Positions 47,238 to 64,000 of a stretch of 64,000 nucleotides of DNA are shown one piece after another. This DNA comes from Micromonospora carbonacea. Its GTDB lineage: Bacteria; Actinomycetota; Actinomycetes; Mycobacteriales; Micromonosporaceae. Position numbers and translations under genes: made by a program. The first letter of the stretch is position 1. Each line of letters starts with the position of its first letter. The stretch is from contig NZ_JACHMZ010000001.1 in assembly GCF_014205165.1 (NCBI RefSeq), positions 6,120,501 through 6,184,500 on the forward strand. Direction: 5' to 3'. The notes under the pieces were generated by a model. The model was not told the origin of the DNA. It saw only the letters and a program-made list of their open reading frames with translations, and made no database searches.

Positions 47238-47246
47238 CGACGACAG

Positions 47247-47408: not shown

Positions 47409-48329
47409 ATGAGCCAGACGTACGGCCGCAGCCCGCTCTGGGAGCTCTACAACAACACCCAGGTCACCAGGGAGGCCGTCGGCGACCTGAGCAACTTCAA
47501 GTCCAGCGAGGTCAACTACAAGCTGGCGCTCTGGGACCCGCGGGTCAATGGTGTGCGCTATCTGAAAACGCTCGTCTTCACCCTCGCGGCGGGCCTGAGC
47601 CCGGCCAACTGGGCCCGGCTGCGCCGCATCGCCAACCGCGAGGTCGGCGATCCGTTCTCGATCACCTACGACGGCGAAGCGGTCTGCATGGACTACCTGC
47701 AGGCGGTGCTCGAGGTGGAGTTCATCGAGAGCCGGATGACCCTCGACGGTACGAGCATCCTGGAGATCGGCGCCGGCTACGGGCGGACCTGCCACGCGCT
47801 GCTGTCCAACCACGAGATCGCCGCGTACCACATCGTCGATCTGGAGAACTCGCTCGACCTGGCCAGCCGCTACCTCGGCGCGGTGCTGACCGACGAGCAG
47901 CTTGCCAAGGTGCACTTTCACGGCGTCGACCAGGCGGAGGCCGGCGGCGCCCTGCGGGAGCTCCGGTTCGACCTGGCCATCAACATCGACTCGTTCGCGG
48001 AGATGACCCCGGACACCGTCGGCGCCTACCTGGACCTCATCGCCACCCATGCCGACCACCTCTACGTCAACAACCCGGTCGGCAAGTACCTCGACAAGAG
48101 CCTGGACGGGCACTCGCAGGGCGACGCGGTCGTCCAGCTCGCGTTGCGGACCGGCCTGCTGAGGGACATCGTGGACATCTTCGACGACCGCGCCGTCGCG
48201 GCGCAGTCCCGCCGGTTCATCGACGCCTACCGGCCGGGCCGCGACTGGGCGCTGCTCGCAGATGCGAGAGCCGTCCCGTGGAGCTTCTACTGGCAGGCGC
48301 TGTACCGGTCCGGAGCTGCCGGGCGATGA
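47409..48329 (+). CDS. putative sugar O-methyltransferase
   Basis: 306 residues from ATG 47409. The SAM loop is ILEIGAGYGRTCHALL (residues 114-129), followed by DLENSLDLAS and FDLAINIDSFAEMT. The conserved NNPVGKYLD stretch and N-terminal PLWELYNNTQ/VNYKLALWDPR match the putative sugar O-methyltransferase family of deoxysugar clusters. It overlaps the 4-ketoreductase start by 4 nt (ATGA). I infer methylation at the sugar O-4, as in evernitrose. It could equally act on another sugar of the same cluster. Confidence 0.8.
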   Translation: MSQTYGRSPLWELYNNTQVTREAVGDLSNFKSSEVNYKLALWDPRVNGVRYLKTLVFTLAAGLSPANWARLRRIANREVGDPFSITYDGEAVCMDYLQAVLEVEFIESRMTLDGTSILEIGAGYGRTCHALLSNHEIAAYHIVDLENSLDLASRYLGAVLTDEQLAKVHFHGVDQAEAGGALRELRFDLAINIDSFAEMTPDTVGAYLDLIATHADHLYVNNPVGKYLDKSLDGHSQGDAVVQLALRTGLLRDIVDIFDDRAVAAQSRRFIDAYRPGRDWALLADARAVPWSFYWQALYRSGAAGR

Positions 48330-49435
48330 CGGACCGCCCGCTGATCGCGGTGCTCGGCGCGTCCGGTTTCGTGGGCTCGGCCGTCCTGACCGCGCTGGCC
48401 GACCGCCCAGTCACCGTCCGGGCGGTGTCCCGCCGATCCGCTGTGGCACCGGAGCCGGCCGCCGCGGATTTCGAGGTGGTCACCGCCGACCTCACCGAGA
48501 CAGGCGCGGTCGCGGCGGCGGTCGAGGGCGCGGATGCCGTGATCAACCTGGTGCTCAACACCGCCGGGTGGCGCAGCGCCGACGGCGACGGCACCGCGGC
48601 GCGGGTGAACCTCGGCGTCGTCCGTGACCTGGTCGAGGTTGCGCGGGCCGGGACCGGGCCACGGGTGGTCGTCTTCGCCGGCTCGGCGTCACAGGTCGGC
48701 CGGGCGCAGCGGATGCCCGTCGACGGGACCGAACCCGACCACCCGGAGACCGGATACGACCGGCAGAAGGCGGCCGCCGAAGCGCTGCTCGACCGGGCCT
48801 CCGCCGATGGCATCCTCCGCGGGGTCACGCTGCGCCTGCCCACCGTCTTCGGGCCGGCCCGCCCGGGTGGCGGCGACGACCGCGGGGTCGTGTCGACGAT
48901 GATCCGCCGCGCGCTCGCCGGCGAACCCCTGACCATGTGGCACGACGGCACCATCCAGCGAGAGCTGCTCTACGTGGACGACGCGGCGAGCGCCTTCGTC
49001 GCCGCCCTCGACCATGCCGATGCGCTCGTCTGCCGGCACTGGCCGCTCGGCAGCCGCCGCGGCGAACCGGTCGGTGACCTTTTCCGGACGATCGCCGCGC
49101 TGGTCGCGGAGGAGACGGGGCGTCCGCCGGTGCCGGTCGTCTCCGTCGCGCCGCCCGCCAGTGCCCGGCAGACCGACTTCCACAGTCTGGTGGTCGACGC
49201 ATCCGCCTTCACCGCCGTGACCGGATGGCGCGCCCAGGTGGATCTTCTGCACGGTCTACGCCGTACGGTGCGGTCCCTGAGCGAAACGCGCCTCGATCTC
49301 GGCGCAGATCTCGTACCGGGGGAGCACCCCGGCCGCGTGGGCCTGGGCGAAGGTGATCGCGGTCCGGTCCCGATCCGACAGGATCGGCTCGATGTCGGCG
49401 GGAACGGGCAGGCCGAGCGTGTCGTCGAGCGGTGA
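48326..49435 (+). CDS. NDP-hexose 4-ketoreductase (TylCIV/EvaE type), unusual C-terminal tail
   Basis: 369 residues from ATG 48326 (overlapping the O-methyltransferase stop). The atypical SDR has the loop GASGFVGSAVLTAL (residues 10-23), VINLVLNTAGWRS, AGSASQVGRAQR, the Tyr-Lys pair in TGYDRQKAAAEALL and RLPTVFGPARPGGGDDRGVV. It reduces C-4 of a dTDP-4-keto-6-deoxysugar with NADPH. Typical family members end near residue 310. Here the frame continues 60 residues antisense to the 3' end of the epimerase gene, and the tail is Gly/Val/Arg-rich filler. The stop is real in the sequence, but the tail may be non-functional. Confidence 0.88.
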   Translation: MTDRPLIAVLGASGFVGSAVLTALADRPVTVRAVSRRSAVAPEPAAADFEVVTADLTETGAVAAAVEGADAVINLVLNTAGWRSADGDGTAARVNLGVVRDLVEVARAGTGPRVVVFAGSASQVGRAQRMPVDGTEPDHPETGYDRQKAAAEALLDRASADGILRGVTLRLPTVFGPARPGGGDDRGVVSTMIRRALAGEPLTMWHDGTIQRELLYVDDAASAFVAALDHADALVCRHWPLGSRRGEPVGDLFRTIAALVAEETGRPPVPVVSVAPPASARQTDFHSLVVDASAFTAVTGWRAQVDLLHGLRRTVRSLSETRLDLGADLVPGEHPGRVGLGEGDRGPVPIRQDRLDVGGNGQAERVVER

Positions 49436-49879
49436 CAACGCCCGTTCGTTCTCGAAGACGTACTCCGTGGAGAGCAGGTAAGACATCACCGTGTCGTCCA
49501 TCAGGGCGACGAACATGTGCGCCACCCCCGTCGGCAGGTACAGCGACCTGAAGCCCTGGGAGTCGAGGACCACGCTGTCCCAGCGCCCGAAGGTCGGCGA
49601 TCCGACCCGGACGTCGAGCACCACGTCGAGGACCCGGCCGTACGGGCACGAGACGAACTTGGCCGAACCGGGCGGCGTCGTGGTGTAGTGCAGCCCGCGG
49701 ACGACGCCGCGGCGGGAGACGCTGTAGCTGGTCTGCGCCACGGGAAACAACGGATATCCGAGCGTCTCGGTGAAGACCGAGTCCAGGTACGGGGACACGA
49801 AGACCCCCCGCGGGTCGGGAAAGACCCGCGGGGTGAAGACGTACGCGCCCTCGACGGCGAGTTCGGTTGCTACCTGCAC
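49256..49879 (-). CDS. NDP-4-keto-6-deoxyhexose 3,5-epimerase (RmlC type)
   Basis: 207 residues from GTG 49879. The cupin fold has ELAVEGAYVFTPRVFPDPRGVFVSPYLD, the catalytic His in VVRGLHYTTTPPGSAKFVSC, YGRVLDVVLDVRVGSPTFGRW and the LYLPTGVAHMFVALMDD strand. It epimerises C-3 and C-5 of the dTDP-4-keto sugar and gives the L-configuration (EvaD-like). It overlaps the converging ketoreductase by 180 nt. The C-methyltransferase gene ends 8 nt upstream on the same strand; the four minus-strand genes 49256-53566 form an operon. Confidence 0.9.
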   Translation of the reverse strand: MQVATELAVEGAYVFTPRVFPDPRGVFVSPYLDSVFTETLGYPLFPVAQTSYSVSRRGVVRGLHYTTTPPGSAKFVSCPYGRVLDVVLDVRVGSPTFGRWDSVVLDSQGFRSLYLPTGVAHMFVALMDDTVMSYLLSTEYVFENERALSPLDDTLGLPVPADIEPILSDRDRTAITFAQAHAAGVLPRYEICAEIEARFAQGPHRTA

Positions 49880-49887
49880 GGCCCCAC

Positions 49888-51138
49888 TCAATCCCGCACG
49901 TGAACGTGCGGAACGTACAGGATCCAGGCCCCGCCGGCCTGCCGGAACGCCTGCTCCTTCGCCATGATCTCGTCGGCGTGGTTCCACGCGAAGAGCAGCG
50001 CGTAGTCCGGCGGGTCGGTCGGGAACTCGTCCGCCGCATGAACCGGGATGTGCGTGCCCGGGGTCAGGCGGCCCTGTTTGGCGGGCGTCGTGTCGTACAC
50101 CCGCGACACCAGGTCCGGCCCGATGCCGCAGAAGTTCGCCACGGTCGCGCTCTTGGCGGTCGCCCCGTAGGCCACCACCCGTTTGCCCTCCGCCGTCAAC
50201 CGTTCGAGCAACGCCCGCAGGTCGTCGCGGATCCGGCCGACCTGGGCAGCGAACTGGTCCAGCCGGGCCAGCGTCGCGACGCCGCCCGCGTCCTCCTCGG
50301 CGATCAGCGCGGCCACCCGGTCCGCCGGGCGGCGTGCACCCGCACGGGCCAGCGTGTAGCGGACCTCGCCGCCGTGCACGGCCAGCCGGTCCACGTCGAC
50401 CAGCTCGAACCCGAACGACGCGGCCAACGCCTGCACGGAGCGCGCCGAGAACAGGAAGAAGTGCTCGTCGTAGATCTGGTCGAACGACGTCTTCGCCAGG
50501 ATGTCGCCCAGGTAGGGGTCCTCGAAGACGAAGACGCCGTCCGGCCCGAGCAGCGCGTCGACACCCCGCAGGATCGAGTCGAGGTACGGGATGTGGCAGA
50601 TGGTGTTCGCCGCGAAGATCACATCTGCGGGGCCGTCGCTCGCGCGTACCTCACGGGCGGTGGACTCCTCGAAGAAGTCCCCGCGTACCCGAAGGCCCTT
50701 GGCCCTTGCCGCTTCGGCGACCTTGCCCGACGGTTCGAAGCCCAGGTGCCGGACGCCGGCCTCGTGCACGGTCCGCAGCATCACCCCGTCGTTGCAGCCG
50801 ATCTCGACCACGAACGGGTCCGGGCCGGTGGCCTCCGTCTCCAACAGTTGCCGGGCGGTGTCGGCAAAGTGCTTCTGCATGACGGCGGAACCGGACGAGT
50901 AGTACGGGTAGTCCTCGTGGAACATCCGCTCCCGGGGGACCTCCTGCATGAGCTGCACCATCGTGCACGTCTCGCAGAGGCCGACGGCGAGCTGGAAGAA
51001 GTACTCCTGCGGGATCTCCGGTTCGGTCAGGAAGCGGTCGGACAGTGGCTGGCGGCCGAGGTCGAGGAACTGCACGACGGTTCCACCGCAGGCGCGGCAG
51101 GTGGCTCGTGGCCGTGCCCGGTCGGCTGGGCTGATCAT
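49888..51138 (-). CDS. NDP-hexose 3-C-methyltransferase (EvaC/TylCIII type)
   Basis: 416 residues from ATG 51138. A zinc-binding N-terminal domain (CRACGG and CETC, residues 15-60) precedes the SAM domain (DPFVVEIGCNDGVMLRTVHE, about 110-130). A C-terminal alpha/beta domain follows, with VVAYGATAKSATVANFCGI. In the vancosamine and related paths this enzyme methylates C-3 of a dTDP-3-amino-4-keto sugar with SAM. It lies between the 3,5-epimerase and aminotransferase genes, the order expected for a branched aminosugar cassette. A typical length for the family. Confidence 0.93.
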   Translation of the reverse strand: MISPADRARPRATCRACGGTVVQFLDLGRQPLSDRFLTEPEIPQEYFFQLAVGLCETCTMVQLMQEVPRERMFHEDYPYYSSGSAVMQKHFADTARQLLETEATGPDPFVVEIGCNDGVMLRTVHEAGVRHLGFEPSGKVAEAARAKGLRVRGDFFEESTAREVRASDGPADVIFAANTICHIPYLDSILRGVDALLGPDGVFVFEDPYLGDILAKTSFDQIYDEHFFLFSARSVQALAASFGFELVDVDRLAVHGGEVRYTLARAGARRPADRVAALIAEEDAGGVATLARLDQFAAQVGRIRDDLRALLERLTAEGKRVVAYGATAKSATVANFCGIGPDLVSRVYDTTPAKQGRLTPGTHIPVHAADEFPTDPPDYALLFAWNHADEIMAKEQAFRQAGGAWILYVPHVHVRD

Positions 51139-51167
51139 GGGTGGCGTCCTCCAGTGCTACCGGCGGC

Positions 51168-52289
51168 TCAGAGCGTCGTGAGTACGTCGCGCAATGCGCC
51201 TATCACCGTGTCCTGCACGTCGACCGGCAGGGACGGATACATGGGCAGGGAGAAGATCTCGTCGGCGATCCGCTCGGTGACCGGCAGCGATCCGGCGGCA
51301 TAGCCGAGCTTCGAGAAGCCGGTCATGGTGTGCACCGGCCACGGGTAACTGATGTTCAGCGTGATTCCACGCCGCTTCAGTTGCTCCAGGATCGCGTCCC
51401 GCTGCGGATGACGGACGACGTAGAGGTAGAAGACGTGTTCGTTGGCGTCGGCGAGGGCGGGCAGGACGAGCCCGGTCGCCTCGGCGATGTCGCCCAGCCC
51501 GGCGGCGTAGCGCTCGGCCACCGCGCGGCGGCCGGCGATGTACTCGTCGAGCCGGCGCAGCTTGCGCCGGAGAATCTCCGCCTGCACCTCGTCCAGCCGG
51601 CTGTTGTGGCCGGGCGTCTGCACGACGTAGTACACGCTCTCCATGCCGTAGTAGCGCAGTTGGCGCAGGTCACGGTCCACGGTCTCACTACCGGTGAGCA
51701 CGGCGCCGCCGTCACCGTAGGCGCCCAGCACCTTCGTCGGATAGAAGGAGAAGGCCGCCGCGTCGCCCATGGTCCCGGCGAGTTGCCCTGCGTGTCGTGC
51801 GCCGTGCGACTGCGCGCAGTCCTCCAGCACCAGCAGCCCGTGCTCGCGGGCCAGCCGCTGCAACGGCGCCATCTCCACGCACTGGCCGTAGAGGTGGACG
51901 GGCAGCAGAGCCTTGGTCGCCGGGGTGATCACGTCGGCCACCTGGGTCGTGTCCATCAGGTAGTCGTCCGGCCGGATGTCCACGAAGACCGGGATCGCGC
52001 CGACGGCGTCGATCGCCAGCACGGTCGGCGCCGCCGTGTTGGCGACGGTGACCACCTCGTCGCCGGGCCCCACGCCCAACGCCTGCAGGGCCAGCTTGAT
52101 CGCGTTGGTGCCGTTGTCCACCGTGACGCAGTGCGCCACGTCGTGGTACGCGGCGAACTCGGTCTCGAAGCCGAGCACGCTGCGGCCGAGCACGAGGTTG
52201 CCCGACTCGAAGACCGTCTCCACCGCGTCGAGCAGGTCGGCCCGTTCCTTCTCGTATTCCGGCAGGTAGTCCCACACTCGGATGGTCAT
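51168..52289 (-). CDS. DegT/DnrJ/EryC1/StrS sugar aminotransferase (EvaB type)
   Basis: 373 residues from ATG 52289 (AAAGGTG upstream). The PLP aminotransferase has [38 protein letters not shown], and the PLP Lys in [33 protein letters not shown] follows. It transfers an amino group to C-3 of a dTDP-3-keto sugar. It ends 29 nt before the C-methyltransferase start and starts 2 nt after the N-oxygenase stop, so it belongs to the same operon. Confidence 0.93.
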
Positions 52290-52291
52290 GT

Positions 52292-53566
52292 TCACCTTTC
52301 TCCCGCCGGATCCGGGGAGCGGAGCGCCCGAACGCTCATGTAGTCGTTGTCCCGGTCCGCGCCCAGCGCCTGGCCGCTCAGGTAGTCGACGCCATCCACA
52401 TAGCTGTAGGGCTGCATGAACCCACCGGCCCGGACGTCGCGGTAGAGCCGTGCCAACGGGTGCTGCCCGTCGTACGCCTGGCCGCCGAGCAGCGAGAGGC
52501 AGTCGTCGACGACCGCCGGGGCCAGTTCGTTGACGGTCATCTTCGCGTACTGGAACGGGGTCATCATCCCGCGCCCGCGCTCGTCGAGATCGCCGGTCAG
52601 GTCCGCGGCCAGGAGGTCCGCGTTGAGCAGCGCGGCGCCGGCGACGGCCCGGAGCGTGTACAGCCGCGTGTCGATGCCGGCCACCAGGGCGAGGGCGGCG
52701 GCCGCCGGCCGCGATCGACGACGCGCGTACGTCTCGACGGCGAGGTCCCGCGCGGCCTGCGCGACACCGGCGTAGATCCCGAGCATGGTGATCGAGCTGA
52801 CCGTCTGCCCGGCCAGGACGGCGTCCCGGCGCGCGCCGGCCGGCCCGCGGTCGAGAACGTGGTCGGCGGCGACCGGGCAGTCGTGGAAGCTGACGTCGAG
52901 GGTGCCGGAGGCCCGCATCCCGAGGCCGTCCCAGTGCGTGCCGACGGTCAGCCCGGGCGCGTCGCGCCGCACCACCGGAACGGCCAGCACCACGTTGCCG
53001 TCGGCGTCCCGGCGCTGGGCGTGCACGAAGAAGTGGGTACCGATCGGCGCCATGCTGACCAGGATCTTGCGGCCGTTGAGCAGCCAGCCGCCGGAACCAT
53101 CGGCGGTCAGTTCGGTGAGGACGCCCGGCGCGTCCTTCAGTGCCCCGCAGACGGCGGCCTCCCCCGTCGCCATCGCCCGCAGCAGCCGCTCGGCCAGCGC
53201 CCGCACCGGCGGGGAGCCGTGCATCCATTCGTAGGTCAGGGTGAGCCCGCGGCTGAGCTGGACGTGCAGTGCCAGGGCGGTGGAGGCGTCCGCTTCGGCC
53301 AGGCGCATCAGGGCGACGGCGACGTCGTACAGGCGGTGGACGCCGAGCCCGCCGAGCGCGGTGGGCACGGTCGCGCCCATCAGGCCGAGCTTGGCCAACT
53401 GCCCGAACACCTCGACCGGGAACGTGCCGTCCCGGTCGTTGTCACCGGCCTCCGACCGGATCTGCGGGAGTACGCCGGTCAGCAGGTCGACCATGGTGCG
53501 GCCTTCCGGTGTGCTCGGTGCCCGCAGGTCTCCCACCACCGGCGAATTCGCTGTGTCTGTAGCCAT
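52292..53566 (-). CDS. flavin-dependent aminosugar N-oxygenase (nitrososynthase type)
   Basis: 424 residues from ATG 53566 (AAGGAAG upstream). It has the acyl-CoA dehydrogenase fold but deoxysugar-cluster context. Landmarks are [33 protein letters not shown] where typical dehydrogenases have a Gly-Ser-Asp loop, [21 protein letters not shown] and [24 protein letters not shown]. The protein resembles ORF36, RubN8 and KijD3, which oxidise a dTDP-3-amino-sugar to the nitroso level. It is first in the minus-strand sugar operon. A simple acyl-CoA dehydrogenase is the main alternative, but every neighbour is a sugar gene. Confidence 0.88.
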
Positions 53567-53887: not shown

Positions 53888-53903
53888 ATGCGCGTCCTCG
53901 TGA
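53823..53903 (+). CDS. 26-aa short ORF or gene remnant
   Basis: GTG 53823, behind GGAGGGCC, to TGA 53903, overlapping the epimerase start by 16 nt. It begins VKILFIAGPTKSIP, which looks like a normal protein N-terminus (Rossmann-like first strand), then ends. It may be a coupled leader or the stub of a deleted gene. The peptide is not recognised. Confidence 0.35.
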   Translation: MKILFIAGPTKSIPSSATDPRPCASS

Positions 53904-54826
53904 CAGGTGGCGCCGGCTTCATCGGCTCACACCTGGTCGACGCCCTGCTGGAGCGCGGCGACACCGTCACCGTGGTCGACGACCTCTCCACCGGCCGGTG
54001 CGGCCGGTTGGCCGTCCGTGTCGCCTTCCATCAGGAGTCCATCACCGACGGGAAGGCTCTCGCCGCGATCGTGGCGGACGCCCGTCCGGACCTGATCTAC
54101 CACCTCGCCGCGCAGGCCGACGTCCGCACCTCGGTCGCGGATGCCAGCGGCGACACCGGGGTCAACGTGCTCGGCACCGTCAACGTCCTGGAGGCGGCCC
54201 GAGCCGTCGGGGCCCGGGTGGTGTTCGCCTCCACCGGCGGAGCCCTGTACGGGGCGATCAGCGCGATCCCGTCCCCCGAGGACGCCCGCCCGGAGCCTGC
54301 GGCGCCGTACGGCGCCGCCAAGTACTGCGCGGAGCAGTACGTGGCCCTCTACAACCGGCTGTACGGCACCGCCCACGCGGTCCTGCGACTGGGCAACGTC
54401 TACGGCCCTCGCCAGGATCCCGCCGGCGAGGCGGGCGTGGTGTCCATATTCTGTGGGAACCTGCTCTCCGGCCGCCGGCCCACGATCTTCGGCGACGGCA
54501 AGCAGACCCGCGACTACGTCTACGTGGCCGACGTGGTCGAAGCGTTCCTGGCCGCGGCCGAGCACGGCGGCGCGGGCGTGTGGAACATCGGCACCGGCAC
54601 CTCCACCAGCATCCTCGAGTTGCTGGAGGTGATCGCCGCGACGGCCGACCGGGCGGTCCAGCCGGTGTTCGCGGCCGCCCGTCTCGGCGAGCTCCAGCAT
54701 TCCGCCCTCGATGTGACCCGGGCCGGCCGGGAGTTGAACTGGACCGCACGGACAGCCCTCGCCGAGGGAATCGCCAGGGCCTACCAGTGGATCAGGGACC
54801 AGGACGGTTGCGACGTCGAGGCATGA
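53888..54826 (+). CDS. NAD-dependent NDP-sugar epimerase/dehydratase (GalE-like)
   Basis: 312 residues from ATG 53888; a reading from 53714 is open but its N-terminal part is not protein-like. The extended SDR shows MRVLVTGGAGFIGSHLVDAL, HLAAQADVRTSVADAS, the Ser of FASTGGALYGA, the YGAAK pair, NVYGPRQDP and DYVYVADVVEAFL. It would act on a UDP- or dTDP-sugar C-4, as in GalE. It is followed by the AviRa gene on the same strand. The substrate in the orthosomycin sugars (for example a C-4 epimer) is inference. Confidence 0.88.
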   Translation: MRVLVTGGAGFIGSHLVDALLERGDTVTVVDDLSTGRCGRLAVRVAFHQESITDGKALAAIVADARPDLIYHLAAQADVRTSVADASGDTGVNVLGTVNVLEAARAVGARVVFASTGGALYGAISAIPSPEDARPEPAAPYGAAKYCAEQYVALYNRLYGTAHAVLRLGNVYGPRQDPAGEAGVVSIFCGNLLSGRRPTIFGDGKQTRDYVYVADVVEAFLAAAEHGGAGVWNIGTGTSTSILELLEVIAATADRAVQPVFAAARLGELQHSALDVTRAGRELNWTARTALAEGIARAYQWIRDQDGCDVEA

Positions 54827-54924
54827 GCGGGCCGGCCTCAAGCTCGTTCCCGGCGGGTGCGTAGCGGTGCTGCGGCACCGGCCACACCCATTGCTACCCT
54901 GGCGTGCGGAGAGATCGGAGCAGG

Positions 54925-55689
54925 GTGGGCTATCGGTACGAGACGACACGGGACGACTACGGCGATCTTGCAAGCGGGGCGGTTCTCCGGTCCGCCCCGG
55001 GCTTTCCCGCCTTCCCCGTGCGGCTCGCGTCCGAGGTGTTCCAGCACGCCCTCGACGTGCGCGGCGGCACCGACCCGGCGGTCCTGTGGGATCCGTGCTG
55101 CGGCAGCGGTTACCTGCTGACCGTGCTCGGGATTCTGCACCGGCGGTCGATCGCGAGGCTGCTGGCCTCGGACATCGACGCCGACGCGGCCCTGACATTG
55201 GCGGCAGCCAATGTCGGCCTGCTCGCCGAGGGTGGCCTGGCGGCACGGGCTGCGGAGTTGACCGAGCGGGCTCGACGCTTCGACAAGCCCGGCTACGCCG
55301 AGGCCGCGGCCGCGGCCGGACGGCTGAGCCGCCGGCTCGAGGCTGCCGGCGGCCCCCTCCCGTACGCCGTCCGACAGGCCGACGTCTTCGACCCGACGGC
55401 GCTGGCCTCGGCGGTCGGGGGCAGCGAACCGGATCTCGTCGTGACGGACGTCCCGTACGGCGAACAGACGGAGTGGACCGGCGGTCATGCCGGTCGGGGC
55501 CTGCACGGAATGCTCACCGCCGTCGCTTCGGTGCTTCGACCGGCCGCGGTGATCGCGGTGATCGTGCGGGGCCGCCGGGTTCCGCCGATCGGGGCGGCAC
55601 GCCCCCGGCGAAAACTGAGGGTGGGCACACGAGCGGCGGCCCTGTTCGTGGCGGCCGACCTCAACGACGCCGGGCCGGCCCACCCGTAA
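54925..55689 (+). CDS. aviRa: 23S rRNA methyltransferase of the AviRa type (orthosomycin resistance)
   Basis: 254 residues from GTG 54925 (GGAG 5 nt upstream). The sequence follows AviRa closely: LASGAVLRSAPGFPAFPVRLASEVFQHAL, then the SAM loop LWDPCCGSGYLLTVLGILHRRS (residues 54-75), ASDIDADAALTLAAANVGLL, and the catalytic region VVTDVPYGEQTEW. AviRa of the avilamycin producer methylates a guanine (G2535, E. coli numbering) in 23S rRNA and blocks orthosomycin binding. The gene would protect this producer. It sits between sugar genes, as resistance genes often do. An ATG 21 nt upstream (54904) is a possible start. Confidence 0.9.
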   Translation: MGYRYETTRDDYGDLASGAVLRSAPGFPAFPVRLASEVFQHALDVRGGTDPAVLWDPCCGSGYLLTVLGILHRRSIARLLASDIDADAALTLAAANVGLLAEGGLAARAAELTERARRFDKPGYAEAAAAAGRLSRRLEAAGGPLPYAVRQADVFDPTALASAVGGSEPDLVVTDVPYGEQTEWTGGHAGRGLHGMLTAVASVLRPAAVIAVIVRGRRVPPIGAARPRRKLRVGTRAAALFVAADLNDAGPAHP

Positions 55690-55892: not shown

Positions 55893-56933
55893 CTGACTAG
55901 GCGAGCGCTGATCACAGGGATTACCGGTCAGGACGGTACTTATCTTGCGCGGCACCTCCTGGCCGCTGGATATGACGTCTATGGAATGGTGCGGGGCCAG
56001 AATTCGCCGAGCGCGCGCTGCGGCCGGCAGGTGCACCCCGACGTTCGGCTTGTCAACGGCGACCTGATGGACCAGTCGAGCCTGATCTCGGCGGTGGACA
56101 GGGTTCGGCCGGACGAGATCTACAACCTCGGCGCACTGTCCTACGTCCCCACCTCGTGGCGGCAGCCCAACACCACCGCGGAGATCACCGGGACGGGCGT
56201 GGTGCGCATGCTCGAAGCCGTCCGGATCGTCGCAGGCATCACCAGCTCGCGTACCCCCGGCCCGAGTCGGCCACGCTTCTATCAGGCCTCGTCGTCCGAG
56301 ATGTTCGGCAAGGTGCGGGAGACCCCCCAGAATGAGCTGACGCCCTTCCACCCACGCAGTCCGTACGGCGTCGCCAAAGTGTTCGGCCACTACACGGTGC
56401 AGAACTACCGCGAGTCGTACGGCATGTACGCGGTCTCCGGCATGCTCTTCAACCATGAATCACCCATCCGCGGACCGGAGTTCGTGACGCGAAAGGTGTC
56501 GCTGGGCGCGGCGGCCGTGAAACTGGGGCTCCGGGACTCGTTGCGACTGGGCAATCTGATGGCCGAGCGGGACTGGGGTTTCGCCGGCGACTACGTCCGC
56601 GGCATGTCGATGATGCTCGCCCAGGACGAGCCTGACGACTACGTCCTGGGTACCGGGATCGCGCACAGCGTGCGGGAGCTGGTCGAGCTGGCCTTCGCCC
56701 ACGTCGACCTGGACTGGCGTGACCACGTCGTCCTCGACGAGGCGCTCCAGCGTCCGGCCGAGGTCGACCTGCTCTGCGCCGACGCGACGAAGGCCCAGCA
56801 GCGCCTCGGCTGGAAGCCGACGGTCTACTTCGAGGAGCTGGTCGGGATGATGGTCGACAGCGATCTCCGTCTGCTGTCGGGTCCGCAGTGCAGTGAGGGC
56901 GGCGTCATTCGCGAGCTGGCCGATCTGTGGTGA
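55893..56933 (+). CDS. GDP-mannose 4,6-dehydratase-like protein with apparent CTG start
   Basis: 346 residues if translation starts at CTG 55893, where the usual TRRALITGITGQDGTYLARHLL N-terminus begins; the first in-frame ATG (55986) would remove this cofactor loop. Other GMD marks are NLGALSYVPTSWRQP, SSSEMFGKVRETPQNE, PRSPYGVAKVFGH (Tyr-Lys), LFNHESPIRGPEFVTRK and the DYVLGTG/HSVRELVELAF segment. The reaction is NDP-mannose to 4-keto-6-deoxymannose, the entry to D-rhamnose or D-fucose. It overlaps the 2,3-dehydratase start. The CTG start is inference from family alignment and the GGAG site. Confidence 0.88.
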   Translation: MTRRALITGITGQDGTYLARHLLAAGYDVYGMVRGQNSPSARCGRQVHPDVRLVNGDLMDQSSLISAVDRVRPDEIYNLGALSYVPTSWRQPNTTAEITGTGVVRMLEAVRIVAGITSSRTPGPSRPRFYQASSSEMFGKVRETPQNELTPFHPRSPYGVAKVFGHYTVQNYRESYGMYAVSGMLFNHESPIRGPEFVTRKVSLGAAAVKLGLRDSLRLGNLMAERDWGFAGDYVRGMSMMLAQDEPDDYVLGTGIAHSVRELVELAFAHVDLDWRDHVVLDEALQRPAEVDLLCADATKAQQRLGWKPTVYFEELVGMMVDSDLRLLSGPQCSEGGVIRELADLW

Positions 56934-58342
56934 GCGAGCTTCCCGCGTTGTCCGAGGGCAAGCTCATGACGTCCGGGGATGACCCGATGGAGTGGTGGGA
57001 GCCGGCGGCGGGCGGGGTGAGCCCCGCCTTCCGGTCCTGGCTTGCCGAACGGTCGACGATGACCTCCTGCGAGGTGGAGCGGATCCGGCTGGACGAGCTG
57101 CGTGGTTGGGCGTTCGACGAGACCACCGGCAACCTGGCGCACGAGAGCGGCCGCTTCTTCGTGGTCGAGGGCGTGCACGTGCGAACGACGTACGGTGCGG
57201 TGGCGGAGTGGTACCAGCCGATCATCAATCAGCCGGAGATCGGGATTCTCGGCATGTTGATGAAGCTCGTCGACGGCGTCCCGCACTGCCTGTTGCAGGC
57301 GAAGGTCGAGCCGGGCAACATCAACATGATGCAGCTGTCGCCCACCGTGCAGGCGACCCGCAGCAACTACACGCGGGTCCACGGGGGCGGCGGCACGAGG
57401 TATCTCGAATACTTCACCCGGCCGGGCGCCGGCCGGGTCCTGGTCGACGTGTTGCAGTCCGAGCAGGGCTCCTGGTTCCTGCACAAGCGGAACCGCAACA
57501 TGGTCGTGCTGGTCGACGACGTGCCGCCCTCCGACTACCACTACTGGCTGCCGCTGCACGAGGTTCGGCGGCTCCTGCGCATCGACGTTCTGGTCAACAT
57601 GGACACCCGTTCCGTGCTGTCCTGCCTGCCGTCGACCTTCTTCGCCGGTTCGGGAGTGGTCCCCGCGAACTCCGCCATGGCCGCCGCGCTGGCCCGGTCC
57701 GCCAGCGGCGAGGGTCCGTCGCACCGCTCCACGGAGGCGGTGCTGAGCTGGTTCACCGAGGCCAAGAGCCGGCACGAGCTGGCGGTGAGCCGGATCTCGC
57801 TCCGCGACCTGCGCGGCTGGCGGCACACGCCGTATGAGATCTCCCGCGAGGACGGGCGACACTTCAGCATCGTCGGGGTCACGGTACGCATCAACAACCG
57901 TGAGGTCACCGAGTGGAGTCAACCGTTGCTGCATCCGCGGCAGCGGGGGATCATCGCATTCGCGCTCAGGATCATCAATGGGGTGGCGCACGTGCTGGTG
58001 CACGCTCGGTTCCAGGTGGGGCTGCTGGATGCCATGGAGATGGGACCCACGGTCCAGTGCACGCCGAGTTCGGATGCCGAACAGCGGCCTCCTTTCCTCG
58101 ACCTGATACTCAACGCCCCGAGCGAGCGGATCCTGTTCGACACCGTCCTCGCGGAGGAGGGCGGCCGGTTCTACCGCGCCGAGAACCGCTACATGCTGGT
58201 GGAGGTCGGCGACGACCTTCCGGCGGTGCCGGACACCTTCTGCTGGGTCGCCGTCCATCAGCTCGCCACGCTGCTGCGGCACGGCTACTACCTCAACGTC
58301 GAAGCACGCAGTCTGCTTGCCTGCCTGCACAGCCTGTGGTGA
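56930..58342 (+). CDS. NDP-hexose 2,3-dehydratase (EvaA/TylX3 type)
   Basis: 470 residues from GTG 56930, overlapping the preceding stop (GTG 56927 and ATG 56966 are alternatives). Two homologous halves are visible: FFVVEGVHVRTTYGAVAEWYQPIINQPEIGILGML (first) and HFSIVGVTVRINNREVTEWSQPLLHPRQRGIIAFAL (second). They are the tandem DUF of dTDP-4-keto-6-deoxyglucose 2,3-dehydratases. The enzyme removes the C-2 hydroxyl and gives the 3,4-diketo-2,6-dideoxy intermediate needed by both branches of sugar in this cluster. The stop overlaps the ketoreductase start by 4 nt. Confidence 0.93.
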   Translation: MSELPALSEGKLMTSGDDPMEWWEPAAGGVSPAFRSWLAERSTMTSCEVERIRLDELRGWAFDETTGNLAHESGRFFVVEGVHVRTTYGAVAEWYQPIINQPEIGILGMLMKLVDGVPHCLLQAKVEPGNINMMQLSPTVQATRSNYTRVHGGGGTRYLEYFTRPGAGRVLVDVLQSEQGSWFLHKRNRNMVVLVDDVPPSDYHYWLPLHEVRRLLRIDVLVNMDTRSVLSCLPSTFFAGSGVVPANSAMAAALARSASGEGPSHRSTEAVLSWFTEAKSRHELAVSRISLRDLRGWRHTPYEISREDGRHFSIVGVTVRINNREVTEWSQPLLHPRQRGIIAFALRIINGVAHVLVHARFQVGLLDAMEMGPTVQCTPSSDAEQRPPFLDLILNAPSERILFDTVLAEEGGRFYRAENRYMLVEVGDDLPAVPDTFCWVAVHQLATLLRHGYYLNVEARSLLACLHSLW

Positions 58343-59364
58343 GTGAGGTGCCCCAGCGAGCGGTGGTGAACGATCCGATCCGGTTCGGCGTACTGGGATG
58401 TGCCGACATCGCACGGCGGCGGACCCTGCCGGCGATCCTGCGTGAGCCGACGACCGAACTCGTCGCCGTCGCGGCCCGAGAACAGGCGAAGGCCCGTGCG
58501 TTCGCCGGCCAGTTCGGCTGCGCGGCGGCCGCCGATTACCGCTCGCTGCTGAGCCGGCCGGACGTGGACGCGGTGTATATTCCCCTGCCCGCCGGGTTGC
58601 ACCACGAATGGGTCGGCCGAGCGCTTGAGGCCGGTAAGCACGTCCTGGTGGAGAAGCCGTTGACCACACGGTACGCCCACACCGTGGCGATGGTGGAAAC
58701 CGCCCGGTCCCTCGGCCTCGCCCTGATGGAGAATCTGACCTTTCTCCGGCATGGTCTGCACAGCGCGGTCCTGGATCTGCTGGAGGGCGGCGAGATCGGC
58801 GAACTGCGCGAGGTCAACGCCGCGTTCGGATTCCCTCCCCTCGGCCCGGACGACATCCGCTACCGGCCGGATCTGGGCGGTGGGGCACTGCTCGACACGG
58901 GCATGTATCCGCTGAGCGCCGCCCGCCTCTTCCTCGGTCCCGAGCTGGAGGTCGTCGGCGCGACGCTGAAACTGGACCCCGAACGCGGCGTCGACGTGTC
59001 CGGCAGCGCCCTGCTGTCCACTCCGGACGGCCGGACCGCCCAGTTGACCTTCGGCTTCGAGCACGCGTACCGGTCGGACTATGTGCTGTGGGGCAGCGAG
59101 GGGCGGATCGTCGTCGAACGCGCCTACACGCCCCCTACCACGCGACGGCCCGTCATCAGGCTGGAACACGAGGAGGTCAGGCGGGAACTGACCCTTCCGC
59201 CGGAGGATCAGTTCGCCAACACGCTGCGTGCCTTCGTCGGAGCCGTCGCCGTCGCGGGTCAGCGTGCCGCCGAGACGGTGGAGATCTGCGCCCGGGCTCG
59301 CCTGATCGATGAAATTCGGGTCAAATCAGGGCAACCGCGCGTGCGGCTGCCCCACGAGGTCTGA
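58339..59364 (+). CDS. Gfo/Idh/MocA NDP-hexose 3-ketoreductase (TylC1/KijD10 type)
   Basis: 341 residues from GTG 58339. The N-terminal Rossmann domain has IRFGVLGCADIARRRTLPAIL (residues 14-34), YIPLPAGLHHEWVGRALEAGKHVLVEKPLT with the catalytic EKP, then the C-terminal beta domain with GGALLDTGMYPLSAARLFLG. It reduces C-3 of the 3,4-diketo sugar with NADPH and gives a 3-hydroxy 2,6-dideoxysugar such as D-olivose. The 3-amino branch in the same cluster would not need it, so it suggests a second sugar. Confidence 0.9.
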   Translation: MSEVPQRAVVNDPIRFGVLGCADIARRRTLPAILREPTTELVAVAAREQAKARAFAGQFGCAAAADYRSLLSRPDVDAVYIPLPAGLHHEWVGRALEAGKHVLVEKPLTTRYAHTVAMVETARSLGLALMENLTFLRHGLHSAVLDLLEGGEIGELREVNAAFGFPPLGPDDIRYRPDLGGGALLDTGMYPLSAARLFLGPELEVVGATLKLDPERGVDVSGSALLSTPDGRTAQLTFGFEHAYRSDYVLWGSEGRIVVERAYTPPTTRRPVIRLEHEEVRRELTLPPEDQFANTLRAFVGAVAVAGQRAAETVEICARARLIDEIRVKSGQPRVRLPHEV

Positions 59365-60103
59365 GGCGCGGCGAGACCACGGCCGCACCGGGGAGGCCCG
59401 CGCCGGCCCCCTTGAGGGGCCCCGCAGAACGGGCGAAGCGTTCGGACGACTCGAAAGCCGCCTTAGCCCTCTAGGGGTCATCAATGGCGAAAACACCCAG
59501 CTCAATGGACGATCCAGGCCCCGGAGACTAGGTGTTTCACTAAGCCTCAGCACGAGCTCATAGTTGTCACTCCGCGACTCAGGGTAGCGTTCGATCCATC
59601 GGTGGCCCCTGCGGCCAAGCCGCTGGACCACCCCGCACGCGGCCCGGAGCAGGGCGTACCCCCGAACGCAGGCATCGATGGACCCGCATGGGTCAATTCC
59701 GATCAGAGAGCGACAACCGTCGATCATTTACCCGATCGGGGCAGGCGATACGTGCAACTTTCGGTTACACTACTGCCACGTTAGGTCAGTTCTGGGAGTG
59801 GCCACACGGATGACCTACGTATCGATCGCAGGCAAAGCGGGGGTGCGACTGCTACGGGATGTTTACTGTCAGCTAGGTTTTCCGACACCTTCAGGTCAAC
59901 TCCGATGGCGGGTGAACCGGCTGCGCCGGCTTGCCGCACCCGGCAACCAATCGTCTCGGAATCCGCTGGTCGCGCGACGCTTTCTGCCGAATGTCCGGAC
60001 CCAGCACCGCGTAACGTCGGCCGGCCGCCGGTTCGGTGGCCTCCATCGGGTTGAGCACGCCTGCGTCCGGCTGATTCACGGCCGGTTCGGCCTGACTTAA
60101 GCG
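59365..60103. other. 739-nt non-coding region of lower GC
   Basis: No gene supported on either strand. The only marked structures are a small hairpin at 59405-59421 (GGCCCC/GGGGCC, loop CTTGA), a possible terminator for the ketoreductase gene, and an AAACACC/GGTGTTT inverted pair at 59489-59537. The base composition is visibly less GC-rich than the genes around it. It could hold the promoter of the LuxR-like gene or an unrecognised RNA. Confidence 0.5.
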
Positions 60104-60436
60104 TTGGAAGACGACACCGTGACGCAGTGCGCCGTTCCATCGACTCGTCTTGCGAATCAAGTCATGGTAGGGATTGGAGATGAAACTGTGGGTCTGAAGC
60201 TTCCCCTCTCCGAGTTGGATGCCCGCATCATCGAAAGCATCGCAGCGGGTGAGCGCACCGTGCATATCGCGAACAAGGTCTACCTGAGCCGCCAGGGCGT
60301 CGAATACCACGTCAGCAAGTTGTTGCAGCGGCTACGTGTGCCCAATCGGCCCGCGCTCATCGCCAAGGTGTACTCGATGGGCATCCTTTCGGTGGGGACC
60401 TGGCCCCCGGAGGTTTGCCGGGAAAGGCTCGACTGA
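60104..60436 (+). CDS. stand-alone LuxR-type helix-turn-helix protein
   Basis: 110 residues from TTG 60104; GTG 60119, ATG 60164 and GTG 60188 are in-frame alternatives, the last with GGAG 9 nt upstream. The GerE/LuxR DNA-binding domain is clear: LSELDARIIESIAAGERTVHIANKVYLSRQGVEYHVSKLLQRLRV (about residues 35-79). There is no receiver, PAS or kinase domain, so the signal is unknown. It may be a pathway-specific regulator of the biosynthetic cluster. The start is uncertain. Confidence 0.75.
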   Translation: MEDDTVTQCAVPSTRLANQVMVGIGDETVGLKLPLSELDARIIESIAAGERTVHIANKVYLSRQGVEYHVSKLLQRLRVPNRPALIAKVYSMGILSVGTWPPEVCRERLD

Positions 60437-60497
60437 ACGGAACGGAAACCAGCCCGTGCAACCCCATGACCCATCGGCAGGGACGATTCGAGGTCTC

Positions 60498-61385
60498 ATG
60501 GAAACGAAGAAAAAAGGGCCCTCCGATTATCCGATGGTAGTGGCTATATGCGCATTCAGTGTCGAGAATGTGCGTAAGCACCTACACCACAACCTGGCCC
60601 AACTGTCCGGTGACGAGTACTTCGTGCAGTTGGACCGGCCGAGCACTCCGGAGGCGGAGTCGGTCGCGGCCGAGGTGGATGCCGCCGGCGGAACGATGCG
60701 CGTTCTCGGCGCCACCGGCGGCCTGTCCGCCTCGCGGAATCTCATGTTGGCCCGGTGGCCGAATCACCACGTGATGTTCGTCGACGACGACGTGCGGCTG
60801 GACGCCAAGGCCGTCACGGCGGTCCGCGAGAGCCTGCGCGCGGGCACCCACGTCGTCGGCACTCGGCTCGCCCGTCCACCACGCCCCCTGCCCTGGTACG
60901 TGACGTCCGGTCAGTTCCACCTGCTCGGCTGGCACCGGGACGACCGCGAGATCAAGATCTGGGGTGCCTGTATGGCGGTGGACACCGCCTTCGCCCATGC
61001 CAAGGGCCTCGACTTCGATCTCGCGTTGAGCCGGACGGGTGGCAACCTCCAGTCCGGCGAGGACACCACGTTCGTCAAGCTCATGAAGGACGCGGGGGCC
61101 CGGGAGCAACTCCTGCCGGACTGCTCCGTGACCCACGACGTGGATCCCGCCCGGCTGACCCTGCGCTACCTGCTGCGGCGGGCGTACTGGCAGGGTCGGT
61201 GCGAGTCACGGCGTGGCCAGGCGTGGGCGGGGTTCCGGAAGGAATGGGACCGGCATCGCACCGCGCCGGAGTCCCGCCTGCGCCTGCCGCTGGCGTGTCT
61301 CTACGGTGCCGTGACCGCGTGGGGCGTCCTTCATGATCAGCTCCTGCTGAGGTGGGGGCGTGATCATCGCTCGGCGGCGGTCTGA
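60498..61385 (+). CDS. GT2-type glycosyltransferase
   Basis: 295 residues from ATG 60498. The GT-A fold begins PMVVAICAFSVENVRKHLHHNL. The conserved DDD metal motif is in HVMFVDDDVRLDAKAVTAV (residues 90-108), followed by GACMAVD and GEDTTFVKLMKDAG. The C-terminus is RRAYWQGRCESRRGQAW plus a hydrophobic helix (CLYGAVTAWGVLHDQLLL) that may bind membranes. GT2 enzymes transfer sugars from NDP donors. Specificity is unknown; it is not a GT1-type macrolide or antibiotic glycosyltransferase. Its end overlaps the converging epimerase gene by 22 nt. Confidence 0.78.
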   Translation: METKKKGPSDYPMVVAICAFSVENVRKHLHHNLAQLSGDEYFVQLDRPSTPEAESVAAEVDAAGGTMRVLGATGGLSASRNLMLARWPNHHVMFVDDDVRLDAKAVTAVRESLRAGTHVVGTRLARPPRPLPWYVTSGQFHLLGWHRDDREIKIWGACMAVDTAFAHAKGLDFDLALSRTGGNLQSGEDTTFVKLMKDAGAREQLLPDCSVTHDVDPARLTLRYLLRRAYWQGRCESRRGQAWAGFRKEWDRHRTAPESRLRLPLACLYGAVTAWGVLHDQLLLRWGRDHRSAAV

Positions 61386-62287
61386 TGCGCGAGCACGTGT
61401 TCCCAGCATTCACGTACGCCGTCCGTCAGACCGATCCTGGCCCGCCAGCCGAGGGTCTCGTGTGCCAACGAGGAGTCCAGCCAGTTGCCACCTCTGTCGA
61501 ACTGGCGACCGCCTTCCCAGATCACCTCGATCCGCTGGTCGACCACTGTCGACACCACCGCGAGCAGATCGGCCAGGGAGGTGGGCGCCCCTGAGCCGAC
61601 GTTCAACACGGTCGGGATTCCCTCCGGACCGGTAGTGACCGTACGGCGGTGCACGGCCTTGAGGATCTCGGCGACGTCGTCCACGTGCACGTAGTCGCGG
61701 ACCACCTCCGGATCACCGAAGACCCGGATCGGCTGCCGCCTGGCCGCGGCGTCCAGCCAGTGCGACAGCACGCCGTAGCCGTGCGCCGGGCGCTGGCCGG
61801 GCCCATAGACGTTACTGAGCCGCAGGATCACGGGACGGACATGGTCGGCGTGACCCAACAGTTCGCGTTCCAGCCCGAGCTTGGCGCGCCCGTACGCCGA
61901 CGTGGGCCTGGTCAACGCCGATTCGTCGTACGGCGGGCACGCGTCCGGCGAGTACACCGTGCCGCCTGAGCTGGCCAGTACGAACACCGGGAAGGGGGCG
62001 GAGTGCCGCAGGGCCGTCAGGACGTCGACGAGCAGCCTGCGCTCGGCGACGATCAGTTCCGGATGGCGCTCGGCGAGCGCCGGGCTCAACCGTGCGGCGA
62101 GGAACAGTACGATCTCGGCGTCGCACAGGCCGGCAGCCGGGCGCCCGTCGACCACCGGCGGGTGCGCCTGGTTGAAGCGGGCGACCGGGTGCCCCGCGCG
62201 GGTCAGTTGGGCCACGAGCCGGGACCCGATGAACCCGGTGGCGCCGATGACGGCCGTCGGGCATCTCCTCACCTGGGCTGCCGTCAC
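61364..62287 (-). CDS. NAD-dependent epimerase/dehydratase
   Basis: 307 residues from GTG 62287, overlapping the HAD stop by 4 nt. The extended SDR shows TAVIGATGFIGSRLVAQL (Gly-rich loop), LASSGGTVYSPD, the YGRAK pair in TSAYGRAKLG, LRLSNVYGPGQRP, RDYVHVDDVAEIL, and a C-terminal ESTL-like HETLGWRARIGLTDG. It is a UDP-glucose 4-epimerase-like enzyme; substrate is unknown. With the HAD gene it forms a two-gene minus-strand operon that points away from the polyketide synthase gene. Confidence 0.85.
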   Translation of the reverse strand: MTAAQVRRCPTAVIGATGFIGSRLVAQLTRAGHPVARFNQAHPPVVDGRPAAGLCDAEIVLFLAARLSPALAERHPELIVAERRLLVDVLTALRHSAPFPVFVLASSGGTVYSPDACPPYDESALTRPTSAYGRAKLGLERELLGHADHVRPVILRLSNVYGPGQRPAHGYGVLSHWLDAAARRQPIRVFGDPEVVRDYVHVDDVAEILKAVHRRTVTTGPEGIPTVLNVGSGAPTSLADLLAVVSTVVDQRIEVIWEGGRQFDRGGNWLDSSLAHETLGWRARIGLTDGVRECWEHVLAHQTAAER

Positions 62288-63033
62288 GACGACTCGGCGC
62301 GAGTGACCGGGCGCAGGCCCGTGGCCGAGGAACGAGCCAGGGCCGCCAGCGTGGCGACGACGGACACCCGTTCGTCGTCACCGGCCGGCGGCGCGGTCCG
62401 GACGGCGCGGAGCGACGTGTACGCCCGGATCAGATCGGGGTGGACGCCGGACGGCGGCCGGTAGCCGGGGTCCGCGCGGACGAAGGCGACCGGGCAGCCG
62501 AGCGCCCGCGCCGGCAGGACGTCGTGGTCGTGCCGGTTGCCGACGACCAGCAGGTCGGCGGGGGCGACACCGAGGTGTTCCAGGGCGATTCCCAGCAGCG
62601 CCGGATCCGGCTTGGCGACGCCCACGAGCGAATCGAGGAAGACGCCCGCGCAGGCCTCTGTCAGTCCCCAGGCATCCAGCACCCGCGCGCACTCCGGGGG
62701 CTGGTTGGCGACGATCACCGTCGGGACCTCGCGGGCCAGCGTCACCGCCGCCCGGACCGCGCCCGGCATCTCCTGGGCGAGTTCGTGCCAGGCCCGGCGA
62801 ATCTGCGCCCAGGCTCGGGCGGCGGCCGGCGAATGCAACAGCGTCCGGCCTGCGGCTCCGTCGTCCGGGGAGTGATAGAAACGCTCGACATGCTCGATGA
62901 AAACGGACCGGGTGATCGCCGGGTCGTCAGATCGGAGCAGATCGTACGTCGCTTGCAGCCACGCCAGCTCGAACGGCTCATCGTAATAGATGACCCCACC
63001 GACATCCAGCGCGATGGCACCGTATTCGGTCAT
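62284..63033 (-). CDS. HAD-superfamily phosphatase
   Basis: 249 residues from ATG 63033 (GGGAG 9 nt upstream; a longer reading from 63195 has a non-coding start). Motif I is AIALDVGGVIYYDEPF with the nucleophilic Asp; its usual second Asp is replaced by Gly-Val. Motif II is TVIVANQPP, motif III is VGVAKPDPALL, motif IV is LVVGNRHDHDV. The cap domain covers about residues 15-100. It may dephosphorylate a sugar or nucleotide intermediate of the cluster, or have regulatory use. Coupled to the epimerase gene by a 4-nt overlap. Confidence 0.82.
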   Translation of the reverse strand: MTEYGAIALDVGGVIYYDEPFELAWLQATYDLLRSDDPAITRSVFIEHVERFYHSPDDGAAGRTLLHSPAAARAWAQIRRAWHELAQEMPGAVRAAVTLAREVPTVIVANQPPECARVLDAWGLTEACAGVFLDSLVGVAKPDPALLGIALEHLGVAPADLLVVGNRHDHDVLPARALGCPVAFVRADPGYRPPSGVHPDLIRAYTSLRAVRTAPPAGDDERVSVVATLAALARSSATGLRPVTRAESS

Positions 63034-63528
63034 CGTCAATGACTCCCGTGCCTTCGACAACATCCGCGTGATCCTCGCACGGTCCATCGTGACCGATCGA
63101 GCCCTCGGCTGCCGATCCGACATCTCGCCGGCGGATTCTAGGTCTTTCCCTATTCGCCGATGGTCATCGGATCGGCGGCGTCGCCCGCCGCCCATGCCCG
63201 GGGCGCGTCCACACCAACCACCGCAAGCCGGGCACCCGCACGACCGGGCGGGAGTCCGGTTCCGGATCGCCTCGCGGGAGGCCCTGCCGGGGGCGCGTCA
63301 GAAAATGTCTAGGAGAAGTTCTATATCACTGTCATATAGACCGTTTGTAGAGTTCGTTGGATCGCCGTATGGGATATGGAGTCTGACGCGCGGTGCGCCG
63401 CCCGGAGTCGCGGCGACCGGCCCGGTCGCGGCAGTCCTCGATGCGCCGCGGGGCGTAACCCGCCCGAGGCGATGCCCGCCCGACCGTCCGTTCAGGCAAT
63501 CGACAACAGGGGATGTTCGTGGAACCGA
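63034..63528. promoter_or_regulatory. 495-nt divergent region upstream of the polyketide synthase gene
   Basis: No gene is supported. GC is high until about 63300, then an AT-rich stretch (63300-63390) has TATAT-type sequences and the dyad at 63320-63340. AACAGGGG lies just before the synthase start. It holds the promoters of the HAD gene (leftward) and the synthase gene (rightward). Confidence 0.5.
63320..63340. promoter_or_regulatory. 21-nt dyad TCTATAT-N7-ATATAGA
   Basis: Perfect 7-nt arms around CACTGTC, itself nearly symmetrical (ACnGT), in the AT-rich stretch 189 nt upstream of the synthase start. Symmetry and position fit an operator for a dimeric regulator of the polyketide gene. Confidence 0.55.
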
Positions 63529-64000
63529 AAGCAATCAAGCCGCTCGCGGGGGCCTCTCCATCGGTCGCGGTCATCGGCATCGGTTGCCGGTTCCCCGGCG
63601 ACGTCAATTCCCCGGACGGCTTCTGGGACCTGCTCGCCGGCGGGCACAACACCACCGGCGAAGTGCCGGCCAGCCGATGGGAGCCGTACCGGGACCTGGG
63701 GCCCGAGTTCGAGAACGCCGTACGCCGGGCTAACCGTTCGGGCAGCTTCCTGAATGAGATCGACGGCTTCGATGCCGACTTCTTCGGCATCTCGCCACGC
63801 GAGGCCGAGCTGATGGATCCCCAGCAACGACTGCTGCTGGAGGTGGCCTGGCAGGCCCTGGAACACGCGGGCATCGCACCGCGCGAGCTGGCCGGCACGG
63901 ACACCGGTGTCTTCGCCGGTGCCTGCACCTACGACTACGGTGCCCACCAGCTCGAGAACCTCCCGTACATCGACGCCTGGACCGGGATCGGCGCCGCCGC
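63529..64000 (+). CDS. type I polyketide synthase, start of ketosynthase (3' part outside the window)
   Basis: 157 residues are visible from GTG 63529 (AGGGG spaced 7 nt; ATG 63523 is an alternative). The ketosynthase begins PSVAVIGIGCRFPGDVNSPDGFWDLLAGG, with NRSGSFLNEIDGFDADFFGISPREAELMDPQQRLLLEVAWQALEHAG. These are the standard type I KS N-terminal motifs. The catalytic Cys lies past the edge. A PKS starting with KS and with no loading module fits an iterative orsellinate synthase (AviM/CalO5 type), as needed for the dichloroisoeverninic acid of everninomicins. That identity is inference from context. Confidence 0.85.

Follow-up and report, generated by a model that had tools for sequence, protein, structure and literature searches.

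The 64,000-nucleotide stretch of Micromonospora carbonacea DNA considered here (hereafter the window; G000:C1:6120501-6184500) lies on a complete chromosome of 7.53 Mb. Together with the next 80 kb, for which coordinates above 64000 continue the numbering of the window, it was examined for genes with a codon-usage script and carries an everninomicin-type cluster for the biosynthesis of an orthosomycin, an antibiotic class once in phase III trials according to PMC10338323. By our own calls, the cluster spans 47,409 to ~101.3-102.9 kb and comprises 47 genes (e04-e50). It has already been described and is thus not new: the stretch is almost certainly the left third of the evd cluster for everninomicin D, from M. 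carbonacea var. aurantiaca or from another strain that shares it. Given that the cluster is known, the finding mainly validates an initial annotation made from the letters of the window and sets the borders of the cluster; the interest lies mainly in whether EvdS6, the product of gene e22, is a dehydratase or a decarboxylase.

The match to the crystallised Evd enzymes is direct. Along the alignments, e25 is identical to EvdO2 (PDB 4xab) at 252/252 residues and e33 to EvdO1 (PDB 4xbz) at 313/313, whereas e20 is equated with EvdMO1 (PDB 6ec3/5t38) by score, since it matches 6ec3 with 1028.3 bits, i.e., at the level of the self-match to its own genome copy (1028.1 bits). To these may be added nine residues of EvdS6 (PDB 8shh/8sk0) found in e22. 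From the EvdO1 and EvdO2 identities and the self-match-level score of e20, it follows that the stretch is the evd cluster and that the cluster is known, and the everninomicin-type orthosomycin cluster proposed in the initial annotation is thereby supported from downstream of the window. One point weighs against this equation: 47 genes were called here versus the 50 reported for M. carbonacea var. aurantiaca (PMC10338323). It is the only difference found in a comparison made via the crystallised Evd proteins and the published description.

Gene content and borders of the cluster

The genes of the cluster that begin in the window are as follows.

47409..48329, + strand: e04, sugar O-methyltransferase type at the left edge of the cluster, in the evernitrose cassette (NCBIfam TIGR04371, 136.6 bits, cut-off 44; in 4/7 relatives)
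48326..49435, + strand: e05, NAD-dependent epimerase/dehydratase family, likely a 4-ketoreductase (PF01370, 168 bits)
49256..49987, - strand: e06b, open reading frame of a dTDP-4-keto-sugar 3,5-epimerase, the true start probably internal, near 49876
49888..51138, - strand: e07, C-methyltransferase, probably for the 3-C-methylation of evernitrose (PF08484, 185 bits; PF08421; PF13489)
51168..52295, - strand: e08, DegT/DnrJ sugar aminotransferase (PF01041, 359 bits)
52292..53494, - strand: e09, nitrososynthase (N-oxygenase; best PDB match 3mxl 'Nitrososynthase', 644 bits, residues 1-380)
53888..54826, + strand: e10, short-chain dehydrogenase/reductase (SDR) of the epimerase/dehydratase family (PF01370, 214 bits)
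54925..55689, + strand: e11, AviRa-type rRNA methyltransferase for self-protection (PF11599, 240.4 bits, cut-off 25.7; PDB 1o9g, 268 bits)
55893..56933, + strand: e12, GDP-mannose 4,6-dehydratase type with an apparent CTG start (PF16363, 344 bits for the portion called, which starts at 55986)
56966..58342, + strand: e13, nucleoside diphosphate (NDP)-hexose 2,3-dehydratase (PF03559, 495 bits)
58336..59364, + strand: e14, Gfo/Idh/MocA oxidoreductase, a presumed AviT-like 3-ketoreductase (PF01408, PF22725)
60188..60436, + strand: e15, short LuxR-type DNA-binding protein (PF00196, 35 bits, cut-off 23.5)
60570..61385, + strand: e16, conserved 271-aa protein with 0 Pfam families (in 7/7 relatives)
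61364..62272, - strand: e17, SDR of the epimerase/dehydratase family (PF01370, 106 bits)
62284..63033, - strand: e18, HAD-type hydrolase (PF00702, 42 bits)
63513..67316, + strand: e19, orsellinate-type polyketide synthase (PKS), KS-AT-DH-ACP, 1267 aa, with its first 162 codons inside the window (to 64000)

Downstream of these lie the following genes.

67471-68823: e20, methyltransferase-PhyH fusion matching EvdMO1
e21, e24 and e41: SDRs
69961-70950: e22, RmlB-type SDR
e23: RmlA (410 bits, cut-off 320.25)
e25 and e33: PhyH proteins (EvdO2 and EvdO1)
e26, e27, e30, e35 and e43: glycosyltransferases, e26 on a weak Pfam score slightly below the cut-off
e28/e29: E1-type thiamine pyrophosphate (TPP) enzyme pair
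e31: flavin halogenase type (PF04820)
e32, e36, e40, e44, e45 and e46: methyltransferases, e40 being an O-methyltransferase
e34: radical SAM protein
e37: AviN type (75% to the Streptomyces curacoi counterpart)
e38: SpoU-type rRNA methyltransferase of the AviRb type (PDB 1x7o, 291 bits)
e39: PhyH score slightly below the cut-off
e42: cupin
e47: multicopper oxidase
e48: RMKL-like methyltransferase
e49: Na/H exchanger

The locus thus combines the features that mark an orthosomycin cluster, namely orthoester oxygenases, a stand-alone PKS with an AviN type and a halogenase, an rmlA/rmlB pair, AviRa and AviRb types, and an evernitrose set. Each class that the initial annotation had named in reading a nitrosugar gene set, AviRa and the start of a PKS is present in the window (e05, e06b, e07, e08, e09, e11, e13, e19). 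What it had suggested looking for beyond 64 kb is there as well: the rest of the PKS as one protein to 67316, RmlA (e23) with the RmlB-type e22, the non-haem iron orthoester oxygenases e33 and e25 with EvdMO1 as a third PhyH-type protein, and the halogenase e31, along with counterparts of AviN, AviX12, AviB1/B2 and AviRb. It had staked its reading against two outcomes, a modular PKS and a want of orthoester oxygenases, and neither materialised: the PKS is not modular because it is a single protein and the gene after it lies on the opposite strand. The e19 protein probably acts iteratively and makes orsellinate.

The 3,5-epimerase was missed by our gene calling and came from a profile search, the PF00908 match at 49346-49861 (-) being the sole one in the whole genome; against TIGR01221 it reaches 134.9 bits, below the cut-off of 155.75.

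For the borders and distribution, e04-e50 were compared with seven relatives, a gene being scored as present when a match of ≥45% identity covered ≥70% of the protein within the 80-140 kb retrieved, such that one farther off counts as absent. The genes held in common number 47/47 in Micromonospora rubida, 46 in Catenuloplanes japonicus, 42 in Spongiactinospora sp. TRM90649, 40 in Micromonospora sp. ATCC 39149, 33 each in S. curacoi and a Streptomyces metagenome-assembled genome (MAG), and 27 in Dactylosporangium roseum. All 15 window genes e04-e18 (47409-63033) are present in 4/7 relatives, and neither e01-e03, which directly precede 47409 in our gene calls, nor e51-e53, after 102.9 kb, have a counterpart in any of the seven. 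Therefore, the cluster begins on the left with the gene at 47409, which makes the edge proposed at 47.4 kb correct to the gene, and ends on the right with e49 or e50. The 'cellulase terminator' proposed for the preceding cassette was not confirmed: a cellulase gene does lie at 45684-47237, but the interval 47200-47450 showed nothing resembling a terminator. An EvdMO1-type gene occurs in just 7/354 genomes of the family, and the co-occurrence of the genes is thus beyond chance.

The everninomicin-type cluster of ATCC 39149, in which the shared genes include the 15 of the window at 54-84% identity over most, differs in lacking e24, e28, e29, e38, e42, e44 and e50. The curamycin/avilamycin-type cluster of S. 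curacoi DSM 40107 shares the PKS, halogenase, oxygenases, and AviRa and AviRb types, but lacks the evernitrose cassette and includes a gene of the UDP-xylose-synthase type. In D. roseum (L073-L075, L122-L125; 140 kb), EvdO1, EvdO2 and the two halves of EvdMO1 form part of a cluster of the orthosomycin type; within the 140 kb, no counterpart was seen of the PKS, halogenase, AviN, O-methyltransferase e40, RmlA, RmlB or evernitrose genes, and the AviN-like gene of this genome (52%) is at a distant locus, 3.006 Mb. The product of the cluster may be an orthosomycin without an aromatic acid. As for EvdMO1, a single gene encodes the methyltransferase-oxygenase fusion in the window's genome, M. rubida and three Catenuloplanes-type genomes, whereas its parts are encoded by two genes in ATCC 39149, where they adjoin, and in D. 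roseum, where they are ~12 kb apart; in the Streptomyces clusters, it is matched in two adjacent pieces.

EvdS6 as dehydratase or decarboxylase

EvdS6 has been described as a bifunctional UDP-glucuronate decarboxylase of everninomicin biosynthesis, for which the residues H87, T126, D127, E128, Y150, K154, N179, R278 and R279 are reported (PMC10338323). Among the 82 genes called in 100 kb, all nine are found at one offset only in e22, the next best gene having 5/9, and a GTG five codons upstream of the called start of e22 yields the exact EvdS6 offset; the assignment rests on this offset match. Two other SDRs, e10 and e21, were rejected as EvdS6 with 4/9 residues each, e21 also giving no PDB match at 1e-50.

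Comparison of sequences leads us to favor, with some reserve, a role for EvdS6 as the physiological dTDP-glucose 4,6-dehydratase of the cluster, i.e., as the orthologue of the AviE1 type and not of AviE2; its in vitro decarboxylation would then be secondary, and a UDP-xylose synthase (UXS) encoded ~1 Mb away at C1:7206002-7206931 would feed the pentose rings. The e22 product passes the cut-off of TIGR01181, the dTDP-glucose 4,6-dehydratase family (383.1 vs 365.1 bits), and falls short of two longer dehydratase models (cut-offs 649-698). In aligned enzymes, the nine residues are matched 9/9 by Escherichia coli RfbB, as opposed to 5/9 in E. coli ArnA and 5-6/9 in eight UXS-type proteins, with 8/9 in each of the two other RmlB-type proteins of the genome; the BLAST identity of e22 is 39.6% with RfbB and 20.9% with ArnA. 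It bears the motif TDEVYG, with a Thr-Asp-Glu triad and a Tyr spacing of 24. A Thr-Asp-Glu triad with a Tyr 24 residues on marks the dTDP-glucose 4,6-dehydratase family. The Thr-Ser-Glu (TSE) triad of decarboxylases is not present in e22, and the Thr-Asp-Glu triad of EvdS6 was called atypical by its own authors (PMC10338323). For the ATCC 39149 orthologue, which is 78.6% identical to e22, the nearest PDB entry among the matches listed, after EvdS6 itself (77-78%), is DesIV (66%), published as a dTDP-glucose 4,6-dehydratase as against the decarboxylase function of EvdS6; among its best 50 PDB rows, the word decarboxylase recurs only in the titles of 8vr2 chains, at 23%. The structure models were of low quality (mean predicted local distance difference test score 53.7 for 3 sequences and 44.1 for 2), and only sequence identities were used from the PDB comparison, made with the first model.

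The genomic context points the same way. In S. curacoi and in the Streptomyces MAG, the cluster itself includes an e22 orthologue as well as a TSE-triad gene distinct from it (Thr-Tyr spacing 29), a pair that corresponds to AviE1, the dehydratase, and AviE2, the decarboxylase, of avilamycin (PMC8234114); the two clusters are near copies (93% in UXS) and therefore come close to one observation. The three genome-contig orthologues of e22 represent only a few genera. The UXS-type gene of the window's genome is 54% identical to that of S. curacoi, and UXS-type genes outside the cluster region also occur in M. rubida, ATCC 39149, C. japonicus, the congener G098 and D. roseum. Spongiactinospora, on the other hand, shows a UXS-type gene with one internal TGA inside its evernitrose-bearing cluster (G354:C105:55165-56121), where an e22 counterpart could be matched over its first third only (58640-58960), a full one (75%) being found on another contig; neither this UXS-type gene nor the incomplete e22 counterpart entered the tree or the residue table. 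In the tree, ArnA and others form long branches flagged as unsure, and the argument on EvdS6 thus rests on the residues and family scores.

The published alternative, in which the e22 product decarboxylates UDP-glucuronate to feed the L-lyxose and eurekanate rings while other RmlB-type genes carry out the dehydration for the deoxysugars, appears to us unlikely, though it has points on its side. The turnover of UDP-GlcA to UDP-4-keto-xylose and UDP-xylose in vitro is backed by nuclear magnetic resonance, structures and mutants (PMC10338323); two further genes of the genome, 57% and 45% identical to e22, pass the dehydratase cut-off and could serve the deoxysugars, such that e22 would be free for a new role; and D. 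roseum has no e22 orthologue within 140 kb. All three count against a dehydratase role. Set against the published assignment are the RfbB-like residues, the TIGR01181 score, the UXS-type gene elsewhere in the chromosome, and the two Streptomyces clusters in which a TSE-type gene stands beside the e22 orthologue. In the main text of PMC10338323, dTDP-glucose occurs solely within the name of DesIV, and no discussion of a dehydratase role for EvdS6 was found in the accessible parts of the literature on EvdS6 and avilamycin AviE2, subscription papers lying outside the scope.

Thus, EvdS6 may have been assigned the wrong main job in print. If it is a dehydratase, the L-lyxose and eurekanate rings as well as the deoxysugars would arise differently from what has been proposed; the supply of pentose would depend on a gene outside the cluster, with a bearing on the transfer of the cluster to another host; and an RmlB-type enzyme would have been shown to decarboxylate UDP-glucuronate in vitro.

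The evernitrose cassette and the proposed pathway

The cassette e04-e09 (47.4-53.5 kb) is complete (6/6) in M. rubida, C. japonicus, Spongiactinospora and ATCC 39149 and wholly absent (0/6) from S. curacoi, the Streptomyces MAG and D. roseum. To our knowledge, curamycin is without a nitrosugar. The distribution of the cassette fits evernitrose, as no nitrosugar is found among the avilamycin residues listed in PMC8234114. An avilamycin/curamycin-type orthosomycin cluster without a nitrosugar, which the 33/47 genes in common with S. curacoi might suggest, is thus refuted by the presence here of the cassette that both Streptomyces clusters lack, together with the Evd identities, and has scarcely any probability left. 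Equally improbable is that the nitrosugar cassette is part of a cluster for a different class of antibiotic, a spirotetronate or an anthracycline, whose PKS would be modular or of type II: after 3mxl, e09 does match nitrososynthases of other pathways in the PDB (3m9v/4kcf, 532 bits; DnmZ, 439 bits), but the sole PKS gene of the stretch encodes a single 1267-aa protein, AviRa lies mid-cluster, and the identity with the orthoester oxygenases EvdO1 and EvdO2 refutes it.

Everninomicin is the presumptive product, and each catalytic step that follows is likewise predicted. RmlA and the RmlB-type enzyme would yield dTDP-4-keto-6-deoxyglucose, from which e13 and e14 could form 2,6-dideoxy sugars, and e04-e09 could form L-evernitrose by 3-C-methylation, amination, 3,5-epimerisation, 4-keto reduction, O-methylation and N-oxidation to the nitrosugar. 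The PKS e19 would supply orsellinate for methylation, chlorination and transfer by the AviN-type protein, the glycosyltransferases would assemble the sugar chain, and EvdO1 and EvdO2 would close the orthoesters. EvdMO1 presumably serves the methylenedioxy bridge, and the AviRa- and AviRb-type enzymes would methylate the producer's own 23S rRNA. The pair e28/e29 is absent from ATCC 39149 alone among the seven relatives, a strain that we take to be the everninomicin A maker. A TPP enzyme pair, EvdU5/EvdS3, has been proposed for the acetyl branch of eurekanate, and in everninomicin A, orsellinate replaces the eurekanate end of the molecule (PMC10338323).

The AviRa gene type also occurs apart from such clusters: a strong match (E <1e-50) is found in 15/354 family genomes, and 8 of the 14 tested besides the window's own (L016, L017, L020, L021, L026, G230, G297, G096) lack an EvdO1 match at 1e-15.

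The possibility that e12 is frameshifted or truncated was rejected, its N-terminus being in frame and wanting only a standard start codon. Its CTG (55893-55895, +) lies 6 bases past a GGAG and is kept in 7/7 clusters where the N-terminal motif was found, from five genera by name; in 3/7 clusters, the interval from the upstream stop to the motif lacks any ATG, GTG or TTG, and in the other 4, it contains such a codon at varying positions. The 3' ends of e05 and e06b overlap by 180 bases in the window (49256-49435), by 138 in M. rubida, 78 in C. japonicus and 43 in ATCC 39149. Finally, e16, which adjoins the short LuxR-type e15 and is conserved at 65-96% identity in 7/7 related clusters, is perhaps a pathway regulator.

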